Shown: piece after piece, positions 21,312 to 26,216 of the stretch | Layout of the letters: each line of letters opens with the position of its first letter | How positions within the stretch are numbered: the stretch's first letter is position 1 | From: a virus | Reading direction: 5' to 3' (one strand) | IMG/VR virus record: IMGVR_UViG_3300013099_000070 | Span: 1 to 27,574 of that record | DNA length: 27,574 nt | The notes under the pieces: model-generated | Database searches by the model: none | The model's input: the letters and a program-made list of their open reading frames with translations, nothing else | What the model was told of the DNA's origin: nothing | Program-made: the position numbers and the translations under genes

Positions 21312-21428
21312 AGATACTATTTCTATGTGCTAACCACTACACCAAGTAGGATCTCATCTCCCACTGTCAGACTCGAACTGACCCCTTTACTTTCAAGAGT
21401 AATAGAATTTTATTGCTGTTTAGTATCT
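21312..21428 (-). ncRNA. Circularly permuted tRNA-like element P1
   Basis: Reading the minus strand: helix strand AGATACT (21422-21428), motif AACAGCAA (21413-21420), tRNA 3' part with T-arm GTCAG-TTCGAGT-CTGAC (21366-21382), acceptor 3' strand AGTGGGA (21359-21365) and G73. Then a 6-nt linker, acceptor 5' strand TCCTACT (21345-21351), a D-arm (GTGT-AGTGGTTA-GCAC), TAGAAAT, and the closing strand AGTATCT (21312-21318). The acceptor strands pair 7/7 (one wobble), but the 3' half comes first. Joining TAGAAAT to TAAAATTCTA would give a 7-nt loop with anticodon UAA (Leu) plus a long variable hairpin. Alternatively the TTACT-CTTGAA-AGTAA hairpin is the anticodon arm. No CCA encoded. Confidence 0.7.
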
Positions 21429-21446
21429 CTGAGATATTTCTAAAAC

Positions 21447-21561
21447 AAGTCACATTTTTAAGTTGCTCTAACCAACTGAGCTAAACGTCCTTACGAACGC
21501 TAAGGGACTCGAACCCCTGACCTACTGCTTACAAGGCAATTTTAAATGCTGTTAGTGACTT
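21447..21561 (-). ncRNA. Circularly permuted tRNA-like element P2, probably Thr(UGU)
   Basis: Minus strand: AAGTCAC (21555-21561), T-AACAGCAT, then a complete anticodon arm ATTGC-CTTGTAA-GCAGT (21524-21540), AGGTC variable loop, T-arm AGGGG-TTCGAGT-CCCTT, acceptor 3' AGCGTTC (21495-21501), G73. After a 3-nt linker: acceptor 5' GGACGTT (21484-21490), D-arm GCTC-AGTTGGTTA-GAGC, AAAAAT and the closing strand GTGACTT (21447-21453). Acceptor pairs 7/7 with two wobbles. Joining at position 26/27 gives a canonical 74-nt class I tRNA with anticodon UGU. An ordinary tRNA-Thr(UGU) also exists at 26222-26296. Confidence 0.75.
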
Positions 21562-21600
21562 TAAATTTTTGCGGTCGTTTGCAAAAGTTGACACTGAAAC

Positions 21601-21733
21601 AAGAGGCATTTCTTTGAGTGGCAGGTGAATTACCAATATTCTACTCACTGGACAGCAATTAAGTATGCCAAGCAAGGCAGGAATCGAACCTGCATAGCCC
21701 GCTTGATTAAGAAAAGTTGCTGTTTCGCCTCTT
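21601..21733 (-). ncRNA. Circularly permuted tRNA-like element P3 (identity unclear)
   Basis: Minus strand: AAGAGGC (21727-21733), GA-AACAGCAA, 3' part with GCGGG, T-arm GCAGG-TTCGATT-CCTGC (21677-21693), acceptor CTTGCTT (21670-21676), G73. Then an 18-nt linker, acceptor 5' CAGTGAG (21644-21650; 6/7 pairs), D-arm GAAT-ATTGGTA-ATTC, CCTGC (pairs with GCGGG), GAAAT, and the closing strand GCCTCTT (21601-21607). The junction falls in the anticodon loop, whose two flanks (CACTCAA and TAATCAA) do not give a clear anticodon. The linker contains TTGCTGT, complementary to ACAGCAA of the motif. Confidence 0.6.
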
Positions 21734-21752
21734 TAAATATCAGTGTTATGAC

Positions 21753-21780
21753 AGTATATATAATTCACTGTCATTGTCAA
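21753..21780 (-). promoter_or_regulatory. Sigma70-type promoter TTGACA-16-TATACT inside the tRNA array
   Basis: Perfect -35 TTGACA (21775-21780), 16-bp spacer, -10 TATACT (21753-21758) on the minus strand. It would transcribe P3, P2, P1 and the tRNAs downstream. The -35 overlaps the closing helix strand of element P4. An inverted repeat (TGACAGT/ACTGTCA) spans spacer and -10. Confidence 0.72.
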
Positions 21781-21854
21781 GACAAATTTTATATTTTCAA
21801 GCGAAAATATTAGGAATCGAACCTAATCATCCAAAGGATTGCTGTTTTTGTCTT
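21779..21854 (-). ncRNA. Element P4: shared motif around a T-arm/acceptor mini-helix
   Basis: Minus strand: AAGACAA (21848-21854), AAAACAGCAA, TCCTTTGGATGA, T-arm TTAGG-TTCGATT-CCTAA, acceptor-like TATTTTC (21803-21809), 4 nt GCTT, then GAAAATA (21792-21798; 7/7 pairs), AAAAT, and closing strand TTGTCTT (21779-21785). D-arm and anticodon arm are absent, so this is a permuted mini tRNA. The TTTGGATGA before the T-arm resembles the tmRNA 3' domain. It begins 5 nt after the CCA of tRNA-Phe. Confidence 0.6.
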
Positions 21855-21859
21855 ATTTC

Positions 21860-21934
21860 TGGTGCATTGTGTTGGTCACGATCCAACCTCTCAGGTTCTT
21901 CAAACCTACGCTAACCCATCTCAGCTAACAATGC
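21860..21934 (-). tRNA. tRNA-Phe(GAA)
   Basis: Acceptor GCATTGT/ACAATGC, A73, CCA encoded. Anticodon loop TTGAAGA on a TAGGT/ACCTG stem. T-arm GTTGG-ATCGTGA-CCAAC: base 54 is A, not T, so ribothymidine formation should be impossible. Confidence 0.88.
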
Positions 21935-21939
21935 AAAAT

Positions 21940-22016
21940 TGGTGGGCATAGAAGGACTCGAACCCTCAATACAGGCGTTAGAAGCACCTTGCCTTATCCG
22001 TTTTAGCTATATGCCC
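21940..22016 (-). tRNA. tRNA-Arg(UCU)
   Basis: Acceptor GGGCATA/TATGCCC, A73, CCA encoded. Anticodon stem AGGTG/CGCCT with loop CTTCTAA. T-loop TTCGAGT. Confidence 0.92.
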
Positions 22017-22037
22017 ATTATTTCCATAACGGTAACT

Positions 22038-22069
22038 TTATACGTTAGCTTTTAAAAACCAACGTATAA
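22038..22069 (-). other. 9-bp hairpin in spacer between tRNA-Pro and tRNA-Arg
   Basis: Perfect inverted repeat TTATACGTT/AACGTATAA (22038-22046 with 22061-22069) with a 14-nt A/T-rich loop. No T-run follows, so it is more likely a processing structure than a terminator. Confidence 0.6.
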
Positions 22070-24796: not shown

Positions 24797-24823
24797 AAAA
24801 ATTATATTTTCCCTATCATATAT

Positions 24824-25063
24824 TCATAATCGTGGAGTCATTGGCTCAAAAGATCCTAACGACTCACCTTGTACTTTATCAGCTAATTTTGATAACTTAT
24901 TAGCTTGATCTTCAATCAGCAAGTCTTCTGAAACTTGAGATTGTAATACTAACAGACTCTCACAAAGATTACAATGTAAATTATACTTTGCTCCATCTGT
25001 TACTTCCCTAACGGTGATATGATCACATTTAGGGCATTTAAAAGTTGCGTTTATTAAGTTCAT
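24824..25063 (-). CDS. Small zinc-ribbon protein
   Basis: 79 residues. FKCPKCDHITVRE ... LHCNLCESLLVLQ gives two CxxC pairs 20 residues apart, a zinc ribbon, followed by a helical tail (EDLLIEDQANKLSKLADKVQ). Could be a nucleic acid- or polymerase-binding accessory protein; no specific family recognised. A TATAAATA box (25069-25076) ends 6 nt before the ATG and no Shine-Dalgarno is seen, so it may be leaderless or translated with the gene upstream. Confidence 0.72.
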   Translation of the reverse strand: MNLINATFKCPKCDHITVREVTDGAKYNLHCNLCESLLVLQSQVSEDLLIEDQANKLSKLADKVQGESLGSFEPMTPRL

Positions 25064-25068
25064 GTTAC

Positions 25069-25076
25069 TATTTATA
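25069..25076 (-). promoter_or_regulatory. TATAAATA box next to zinc-ribbon start
   Basis: Exact match on the minus strand, overlapping the stop of the upstream gene and only 6 nt before ATG 25063. A start here would produce a leaderless transcript. Possibly chance in AT-rich DNA. Confidence 0.35.
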
Positions 25077-25551
25077 ATTCTTTAATTGTCTTACGCACAA
25101 TTTCAAGTTGACTGACTTCAAATTCAAGTGAGCTTGTTTTATCCGTTGGTACAACATTTTCCATTATGTTATCAAATTGTTCAAACGCTACATCTTCACT
25201 TTCAGTTTCAACAACACATGTAAACTCACCACGAATGATAATTCTATTGTCTTCTTTGGAAATTGTGCCACTATTACAAAAGGCACTTGGTTCTTCTTCT
25301 TGTTCACGATTCATAAACTGTGAACAGCCACTACCTGCCCCCGTCATTTCTTCAACACCGTGTATCATTTTTTGAGCACGTTCCATCGCCTCAACTTCTT
25401 TTTGTTTTTGACTCGCCATTTTTGCCAACCCTTCCATCACATTATTTTCATTTTGTGTTTGACGTATTTTATTACGGGACGCATCAAAAGGATTGTCTTC
25501 TTCTAATTTTGAGATCATAAAGTCAAAAAAGTCATTAGTGCCGTTTATCAT
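25072..25551 (-). CDS. Hypothetical phage protein
   Basis: 159 residues. The N-terminal 70 residues are helical and Met/Gln/Glu-rich (NKIRQTQNENNVMEGLAKMA ... AMERAQKMIHGVEEMTG). A Gly/Ser/Cys turn follows, and the C-terminus has strands (NRIIIRGEFTCVVETES, LEFEVSQLEIVRKTI). No known family. Ribosome site AGGTGAAAAATT before ATG 25551. It starts just downstream of tRNA-Leu. Confidence 0.7.
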   Translation of the reverse strand: MINGTNDFFDFMISKLEEDNPFDASRNKIRQTQNENNVMEGLAKMASQKQKEVEAMERAQKMIHGVEEMTGAGSGCSQFMNREQEEEPSAFCNSGTISKEDNRIIIRGEFTCVVETESEDVAFEQFDNIMENVVPTDKTSSLEFEVSQLEIVRKTIKEL

Positions 25552-25575
25552 AATTTTTCACCTGTTAATTTAATT

Positions 25576-25666
25576 TGGTGGGGAAGGTGGGACTCGAACC
25601 CACATGAGGGTTTCCCCTCGCTAGATTTTAAGTCTAGTGCATATACCAAGATTTCGCCACAACCCC
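25576..25666 (-). tRNA. tRNA-Leu(UAA)
   Basis: Anticodon stem CTAGA/TCTAG with loop CTTAAAA, long variable arm (GAGGGGAAACCCTC), T-arm TGGG-TTCGAGT-CCCA, A73, CCA encoded. The acceptor GGGGTTG/CTTCCCC has two T-T mismatches (pairs 5 and 6). Confidence 0.88.
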
Positions 25667-25672
25667 TAATTT

Positions 25673-26026
25673 TTACCAATAGCCCCATGAATTACTGTCT
25701 TTACAATTCCATTTACTGAAATTGCCTGCCCCGTCATCATAATTCAATTCACGCCATAATGCAACTTTATCTCTTGCACGTCTTTGTTGATTGATCATAT
25801 TACGATAATACTTAGGTAATGAATAGCTGTAATGCTTATCAGAGCTTGTTTTGTACTTATAACGCTCACTTTTAATATAAGCGTCAAGCCCTTTATAAGT
25901 TCTAAAATAAGTGTGAAAATTTGGCGACTCGTCAAACCATTCTGGATGATCTAAACATATTAACCAACGCTTATAATAGGCTTCAAAGGACTCTTTTCTT
26001 TTTCTTGTCGTTCTACTCACGGTCAT
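25673..26026 (-). CDS. Hypothetical basic Tyr-rich phage protein
   Basis: 117 residues, strongly basic with many Tyr and Trp (RTTRKRKESFEAYYKRWLIC, LPKYYRNMINQQRRARDKVA, GNFSKWNCKDSNSWGYW). The YYRNMINQQRR segment and the Tyr/Arg-rich style suggest nucleic acid binding; this is inference. The ATG follows GGAG that sits at the foot of a hairpin (CTAAC/GTTAG, about 26034-26052), which could affect translation. Family not recognised. Confidence 0.7.
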   Translation of the reverse strand: MTVSRTTRKRKESFEAYYKRWLICLDHPEWFDESPNFHTYFRTYKGLDAYIKSERYKYKTSSDKHYSYSLPKYYRNMINQQRRARDKVALWRELNYDDGAGNFSKWNCKDSNSWGYW

Positions 26027-26075
26027 ACTCCTAACTGTTAAAAAGTTAGAAACATGACCCCTTACGACTTTTAAC

Positions 26076-26128
26076 TAGACACATTTTCGTTTCACCTTTG
26101 AAAGTAAATTAATCGCTGTTCGTGTCTA
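26076..26128 (-). ncRNA. Element P6: shared motif around a small hairpin
   Basis: Minus strand: TAGACAC (26122-26128), G-AACAGCGA, TTAATTTAC, hairpin TTTCA-AAGG-TGAAA, CG, AAAAT, closing strand GTGTCTA (26076-26082), then GTT. An outer helix GACTT/AAGTC extends the stem. Same layout as P1-P5, but without tRNA parts. Confidence 0.55.
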
Positions 26129-26156
26129 AAGTCTTTGCAAACGAACAAAGTTTAAC

Positions 26157-26216
26157 AAGATGAGTTTTTTATTTTCATATAATGGTTGAAAAATTTTGTA
26201 TTGCTGTTTTCATCTT
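26157..26216 (-). ncRNA. Element P5: shared motif around a hairpin, 5 nt after tRNA-Thr
   Basis: Minus strand: AAGATGA (26210-26216), A-AACAGCAA (26201-26208), insert with hairpin TTTTCA/TGAAAA, AAAAAAC, closing strand TCATCTT (26157-26163), then GTT and a small hairpin CTTTG/CAAAG. The tail has AAAC instead of AAAT. No T-arm. Confidence 0.5.

Follow-up and report, generated by a model that had tools for sequence, protein, structure and literature searches.

Many large phages appear, from sequence comparison, to carry a previously unrecognised and very small tRNA-gene intron of about 40-50 bases (range 38-50). The element that would form it occurs at six sites in a stretch of viral DNA of 27,574 nucleotides (IMG/VR virus record IMGVR_UViG_3300013099_000070, positions 1 to 27,574; hereafter the window), a 27.6 kb record with T4-like structural genes and a minus-strand tRNA array. 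The element combines a closing helix, P1, with fixed bases on both strands of an internal loop, and we found it in three forms: it may enclose a circularly permuted tRNA, lie inside out within a tRNA of normal order as an intron of 38-50 nt, or stand alone as a hairpin (hereafter a mini). What the sequences establish is the element itself, the covariation of P1, the permuted and interrupted tRNAs, the consistency of the junctions that restore them, and the RNA ligase genes. Our reading, to which we give a probability of roughly 70%, is that the element forms both ends of a very small unit by which phage tRNAs would be spliced, served by a putative nuclease and a phage RNA ligase.

A conserved RNA element with a covarying closing helix

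A sequence-only reading of the window had claimed a recurring RNA element at six sites, and all six are present at the coordinates that it gave (21312-21428, 21447-21561, 21601-21733, 21779-21854, 26076-26128 and 26157-26216; elements 1 to 6 below), all on the minus strand and in the same orientation as the tRNA array. Read on that strand, each consists of the P1 5' strand, 0-3 nt, AACAGC(A/G), an interior, AAA(T/C) and the P1 3' strand. GTT follows the P1 3' strand in five of the six sites, the exception being GAC in 21779-21854; element 1 has one additional A ahead of GTT. Every copy has a P1 sequence of its own, as claimed; the stated helix length of 7 bp had to be corrected, to 7-10 bp. 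A descriptor scan of the minus strand of the window returned exactly these six sites at scores of at least 10.6, compared to a mean of 0.375 (maximum 2) sites at 10.5 or above in 40 dinucleotide shuffles of the window. A covariance model built from elements of other phages only matched at 26154-26216 (E 1.9e-4) and 26073-26128 (E 3.5e-4) when the stretch 20900-26400 was searched with default filters. This short, 29-position model is unable to span the remaining four window elements, whose tRNA inserts are long, and it missed the copies when run unfiltered on the whole window.

Across phages, the consensus comprises a P1 of 7-10 bp, CAGCAA on the 5' strand and AAAA on the 3' strand, followed by GTT, with CAGC at a conserved distance of ~10 nt from the outermost pair of P1. 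The first pattern used to search IMG/VR consisted of the three arms of elements 1-3 and did not require P1 pairing. It yielded 18 stretches, in seven of which a permuted tRNA is clear and P1 pairs perfectly over 7 bp; a second pattern yielded 55 stretches. Among pattern matches whose joining yields a tRNA, 25 of 31 have a P1 score of at least 7, versus 6.6% of chimeric controls. The six exceptions include two ordinary tRNAs, two matches at the cut end of a locus and one that joins parts of two neighbouring elements; the lower score of the sixth comes from joining of neighbouring elements or from divergence.

P1 covaries in homologues that were gathered with no demand for pairing. Its covariation in 21 distinct sequences is 0.383 versus 0.111 for shuffled ones, with none of 500 shuffles as high, and slid alignments reach at most 0.183; the outer pair and pairs 6 and 7 show the clearest signal. 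All 66 elements near tRNAs share the strand of those tRNAs. The earlier claim of a selected RNA structure, with a covarying closing helix and fixed loop bases, is thus borne out by both covariation and co-orientation with tRNAs, and neither of the two outcomes named as contrary to it (no covariation, or a mobile DNA repeat) is what we found. The AAC/GTT pseudoknot suggested at the same time is not supported, because GTT is invariant in the 21 relatives while the two bases ahead of CAGC vary (AA, TT, CA, TA, TG, CG) with no covariation.

Orthologous copies show the same behaviour. Between the interrupted tRNA-Asn genes of phages KVP40 and D484, five of the seven acceptor pairs are changed on both sides with pairing kept throughout, and in a neighbouring gene another pair of complementary strands takes the place of the intron's P1. 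In four Mimasvirus genomes, P1 of orthologous permuted elements has changed in a compensatory manner, as in AAGAATCTA/TAGATTCTT, GGAATCTA/TGGATTCC and AAGAATTCA/TGAATTCTT. Together with the complete strand agreement, these changes speak for a function as RNA and against decay or a DNA palindrome.

Virus contigs of marine, freshwater and host-associated origin contain the element, and so do isolates. The latter include the cyanophage B23 (Kyanoviridae), the Vibrio phages KVP40, phi-Grn1, VS1, nt-1 and D484 (mostly Straboviridae), and GAP32, CBB, XbC2 and Kaldavass (Mimasvirus or relatives). A search of 84,980 prokaryote genomes with one comparable pattern returned 32 matches, all by chance and none a true copy; a single pattern could have missed rare cellular copies.

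Permuted and interrupted tRNA genes

Element 2 (21447-21561, minus strand) encloses within P1 a complete tRNA-Thr(TGT) of circularly permuted order, as seen by folding and virtual splicing. Its P1 5' strand AAGTCAC (21555-21561) pairs with the 3' strand GTGACTT (21447-21453), after which GTT follows at 21444-21446, and the conserved CAGC, within TAACAGC, is at 21548-21551 and invariant in the 21 relatives. The fold proceeds from P1 through the anticodon arm, T arm and acceptor hairpin to the D arm. Fold and splicing place the 3' half of the tRNA first, probably at 21494-21537 (nucleotides 30-31, the anticodon loop CTTGTAA, the T arm, the acceptor 3' strand and the discriminator). A 3-nt linker, TAA (21491-21493), then leads from the acceptor 3' strand to the acceptor 5' strand, and the 5' half comes second, probably at 21461-21490 (acceptor 5' strand, D arm and nucleotides 26-29). 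Virtual joining of the ends gives tRNA-Thr(tgt) with an ARAGORN score of 120.2, in which ACT|GC (the bar marks the junction) pairs with GCAGT in the anticodon stem. Reversed halves that give a full cloverleaf once joined, the criterion for a permuted tRNA, are found in element 2 and likewise at many phage loci.

In several phages the same head and tail are found inside out, the tail (AAAA, P1 3' strand, GTT) standing directly before the head (P1 5' strand, CAGCAA) within a tRNA of normal order. Excision followed by rejoining is thereby the most natural interpretation: from permuted and interrupted genes alike, it appears that a functional tRNA could arise only if the RNA were cut and its ends joined again. 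Virtual splicing of 159 descriptor candidates gave a tRNA across the junction in 72, many of them scoring 115-128, and the tRNAs restored include Thr, Asn, Lys, Arg and Pro. A gene annotated as tRNA-Undet in Synechococcus phage B23 becomes tRNA-Arg(tcg) upon removal of 38 nt (118.6), 'tRNA-Pseudo-3' of KVP40 becomes tRNA-Asn(gtt) (128.6), and splicing in Vibrio phage D484 gives tRNA-Asn (127.3). A long gene found in GAP32, XbC2 and Kaldavass gives tRNA-Lys(ttt) once spliced (126.4 in GAP32, 127.5 in XbC2). Several inside-out copies are present in Vibrio phages D484 and phi-Grn1. The tRNA pseudogenes in the GenBank annotation of KVP40 (AY283928) are copies of the intron; annotated as pseudo-tRNAs, they are read here as intron-bearing tRNA genes.

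The cuts that restore tRNAs have a consensus on the 5' side. In the 35 cases with one single best junction, G is at position -1 in 25, T at +1 in 26 and A at +2 in 30. These predicted cuts fall at the boundary of tRNA and element, mostly at G|UA on the 5' side, and not at AAAT| and |CAA as had been suggested from the window. They are mostly located at tRNA nucleotides 27-31, in the 5' strand of the anticodon stem, and sometimes between the T arm and the acceptor. A fixed junction at 29|30 was ruled out: the cut tracks G|UA, at 27-30, about 32|33, or near the T arm/acceptor. Both cut ends lie opposite an unbroken complementary strand in every case, and the logic of the junction is common to permuted and normal-order genes.

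The remaining window elements, all on the minus strand, are less regular. Their inserts had been described as a permuted tRNA, a mini tRNA or a hairpin, and permuted, reduced and hairpin forms are indeed found. In element 1 (21312-21428), P1 encloses a permuted tRNA whose anticodon loop, TCTTGAAA, has 8 nt; the acceptor (TCCTACT/AGTGGGA), T arm and D arm are present, and the element scores 111.9 in ARAGORN with an ambiguous anticodon. Restored tRNAs with 8-nt anticodon loops also occur at loci L007 and L279, and some orthologues have 7-nt loops. Element 3 (21601-21733) has a rearranged tRNA-like interior (ARAGORN only 103.5), in which the T arm is stacked on CAAGCGG/TTGCTTG and a D-arm-like part is present. 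Its ACAGCAA is complementary to an internal TTGCTGT, by which the conserved strand may be sequestered. Element 4 (21779-21854; fold z -2.24, descriptor score 12.2) encloses a reduced tRNA-like interior made up of the hairpin ATCCTTTGGAT, a T arm and a TATTTTC/GAAAATA hairpin. Elements 5 (26076-26128; fold z -2.11), with one hairpin, and 6 (26157-26216), with a hairpin only, are the minis that the model from other phages detected at the E values given above.

Minis are the commonest form of the element and are located between tRNAs. Three tandem minis at locus L032 (8714-8890, minus strand) are outside a tRNA array, immediately upstream of an open reading frame. In four Mimasvirus-type genomes, conserved permuted elements have the form of a T-arm/acceptor minihelix without an anticodon arm (L274, 270-1560, with orthologues in L281, L282 and L283). 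The tRNA array of the window also contains a gene for a small protein with an RF-1 domain (18164-18553, minus strand; release-factor-like, of the ribosome rescue type) and a free-standing HNH/endonuclease VII-like gene (24168-24701, minus strand); genes of the latter kind may move segments of tRNA arrays. Protein searches for relatives of the window phage gave none when the 1049-aa protein was the query; with gp32 they gave five loci, which were not used further.

Proposed splicing and competing explanations

In the reaction that we propose, P1 and the CAGCAA/AAAA internal loop would draw the two RNA strands together, cuts would be made on both sides at the tRNA boundary (on the 5' side, in most cases between G and UA), and the resulting pair of tRNA ends, held by the opposite strand as a nick in a tRNA helix, would then be joined. 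In normal-order genes this would remove the 38-50 nt intron. In permuted genes, such as window element 2, the same reaction would circularise the tRNA, and RNase P and 3' processing would open the circle at the acceptor, at the 3-nt linker in element 2. Minis would represent the same site without a tRNA. Cutting would fall to a putative nuclease and sealing most likely to a phage RNA ligase of the Rnl2 type (or Rnl1 type). Rnl2-type enzymes seal nicks in duplex RNA, and a nick inside a tRNA helix would therefore suit them. All 19 records that carry the element and are 160 kb or longer (11 from IMG/VR and 8 isolates) encode an Rnl2-type ligase (PF09414). Reading of tRNA regions revealed no convincing element in E. 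coli phage slurp01, PAU, S-CRM01 and three uncultured phage regions, and PF09414 is absent from the three named phages. RtcB was ruled out as the sealing ligase, with no occurrence in 23 records tested.

Several points weigh against this proposal. Splicing of the element-bearing transcripts, its exact sites, its agent and the circular intermediate are all matters that we infer from sequence, and the cutting nuclease is putative. Many cut pairs were tried in virtual splicing, so that one restored tRNA alone is weak evidence, and the 3' cut shows no clear consensus. Restored anticodon loops are in some cases 6, 8 or more nt long, a complete tRNA is lacking in several inserts, and elements 1, 3 and 4 of the window, itself a 27.6 kb fragment, do not restore a standard tRNA. 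Several shorter element-bearing records (e.g. 142, 106 and 95 kb), possibly incomplete, are without PF09414, and because RNA ligases are frequent in large phages (PMC7824862), the presence of a ligase is weak, suggestive evidence. The weight of the evidence is in its repetition, in the junction consensus, in compensation, and in the fact that permuted genes agree with interrupted ones and phages with one another.

Cutting and rejoining could also be carried out without protein, by a self-splicing ribozyme with P1 and the CAGCAA/AAAA loop as its active site. A ribozyme would fit the dozen or so fixed bases set in a covarying frame, the single reaction that all three topologies imply and the presence of the element in unrelated phages and hosts, but RNA ligase genes track the element, and a 38-nt intron is far below the size of any known self-splicing intron; we know of none, group I or group II, near this size, all being far larger. 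In addition, a scan of the window with Rfam at the gathering threshold gave tRNA only, with no group I or II intron and no small self-cleaving ribozyme. We consider this explanation unlikely, and a little more doubtful again that a new intron class of ~40 nt would self-splice in three topologies and make circular phage pre-tRNAs as the smallest self-splicing RNA known. A signal for processing or protection without splicing, such as a hairpin bound by a protein and serving to separate or cap tRNAs, with the interrupted ones retained for some other use, for example as decoys against anticodon nucleases, would agree with minis being the most numerous form and lying between tRNAs. However, it leaves unexplained both the perfect match of the joined tRNA parts and the G|UA junction, and we regard it as improbable.

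Decay of tRNA genes, in which recombination broke and shuffled tRNAs and the element is a leftover repeat, would account for the incomplete inserts (window elements 3-6, the minihelix elements of GAP32), the odd-sized anticodon loops and the annotation of KVP40 copies as pseudogenes. It is very unlikely in view of the compensatory changes between orthologues in the acceptor, T arm and P1, of restored anticodon stems that pair across the junction, and of complete tRNAs with scores up to 128.6. We see hardly any chance that the element is a palindromic site used as DNA (a transposon end or recombination site) and found in tRNA arrays by chance. Many copies per array, three topologies and free-standing endonuclease genes close by would be consistent with such a site, but strand agreement with tRNAs is 66:0, and a P1 that differs in sequence from copy to copy, with pairing kept and unpaired bases fixed, is unlike copies of one mobile sequence.

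Relation to known systems and significance

As of 2014, circularly permuted tRNA genes comprised 34 genes from six algae (red and green) and one archaeon (Soma 2014, PMC3978253); we found none reported from phages in the open-access literature. The algal and archaeal genes resemble the phage ones in having the 3' half before the 5' half, a short acceptor linker, flanks that meet at the junction and an expected circle (PMC3978253). They differ in relying on a bulge-helix-bulge and the tRNA-splicing endonuclease, where phages have P1 with CAGCAA/AAAA. A bulge-helix-bulge (4-bp helix between two 3-nt bulges) was ruled out at the phage junctions, with one match in 23 versus 0.39 expected. Introns of archaeal and eukaryotic tRNAs are mostly at 37/38, whereas phage junctions are mostly at 27-31, with some at the T arm/acceptor.

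Unclassified introns in tRNA genes of Lak megaphages were called enigmatic (Devoto et al. 2019, PMC6784885). Those of Lak-A1 that we compared (Thr at the anticodon loop, and others) are without P1/CAGCAA, and the same kind of intron is not supported; a few mini-like elements are found nearby in Lak-A1. One tRNA-Thr-like gene of Lak-A1 (MK250015; L217, 8338-8524) has an anticodon-loop intron that itself contains a tRNA-like fold, and is a different kind of phage tRNA intron. In Sphingomonas phage PAU (L275, 1761-1903), an annotated tRNA-Ser has a joined intron without the CAGCAA element.

Group I and II introns can also interrupt tRNA and phage genes, and permuted forms and RNA circles are possible for them, but they are far larger than the 38-50 nt phage introns and have other cores. 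T4-type tRNA repair (polynucleotide kinase with Rnl1/Rnl2) is similar in that a phage RNA ligase rejoins a broken tRNA, and differs in that it mends nuclease damage to the anticodon loop, whereas the splicing proposed here would remove an encoded intron.

As far as the open literature searched shows, these are the first permuted tRNA genes in viruses. If they and the interrupted genes are spliced, the element would represent a new intron class beside group I, group II, spliceosomal and bulge-helix-bulge introns, and a maker of circular RNA of minimal size. The tRNA counts and 'pseudo-tRNAs' of many large phages would then be wrong, and phage RNA ligases would seem to have an encoded substrate in addition to the damage that they repair. 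The cultured carriers KVP40, nt-1, GAP32, CBB and B23 make direct testing possible.

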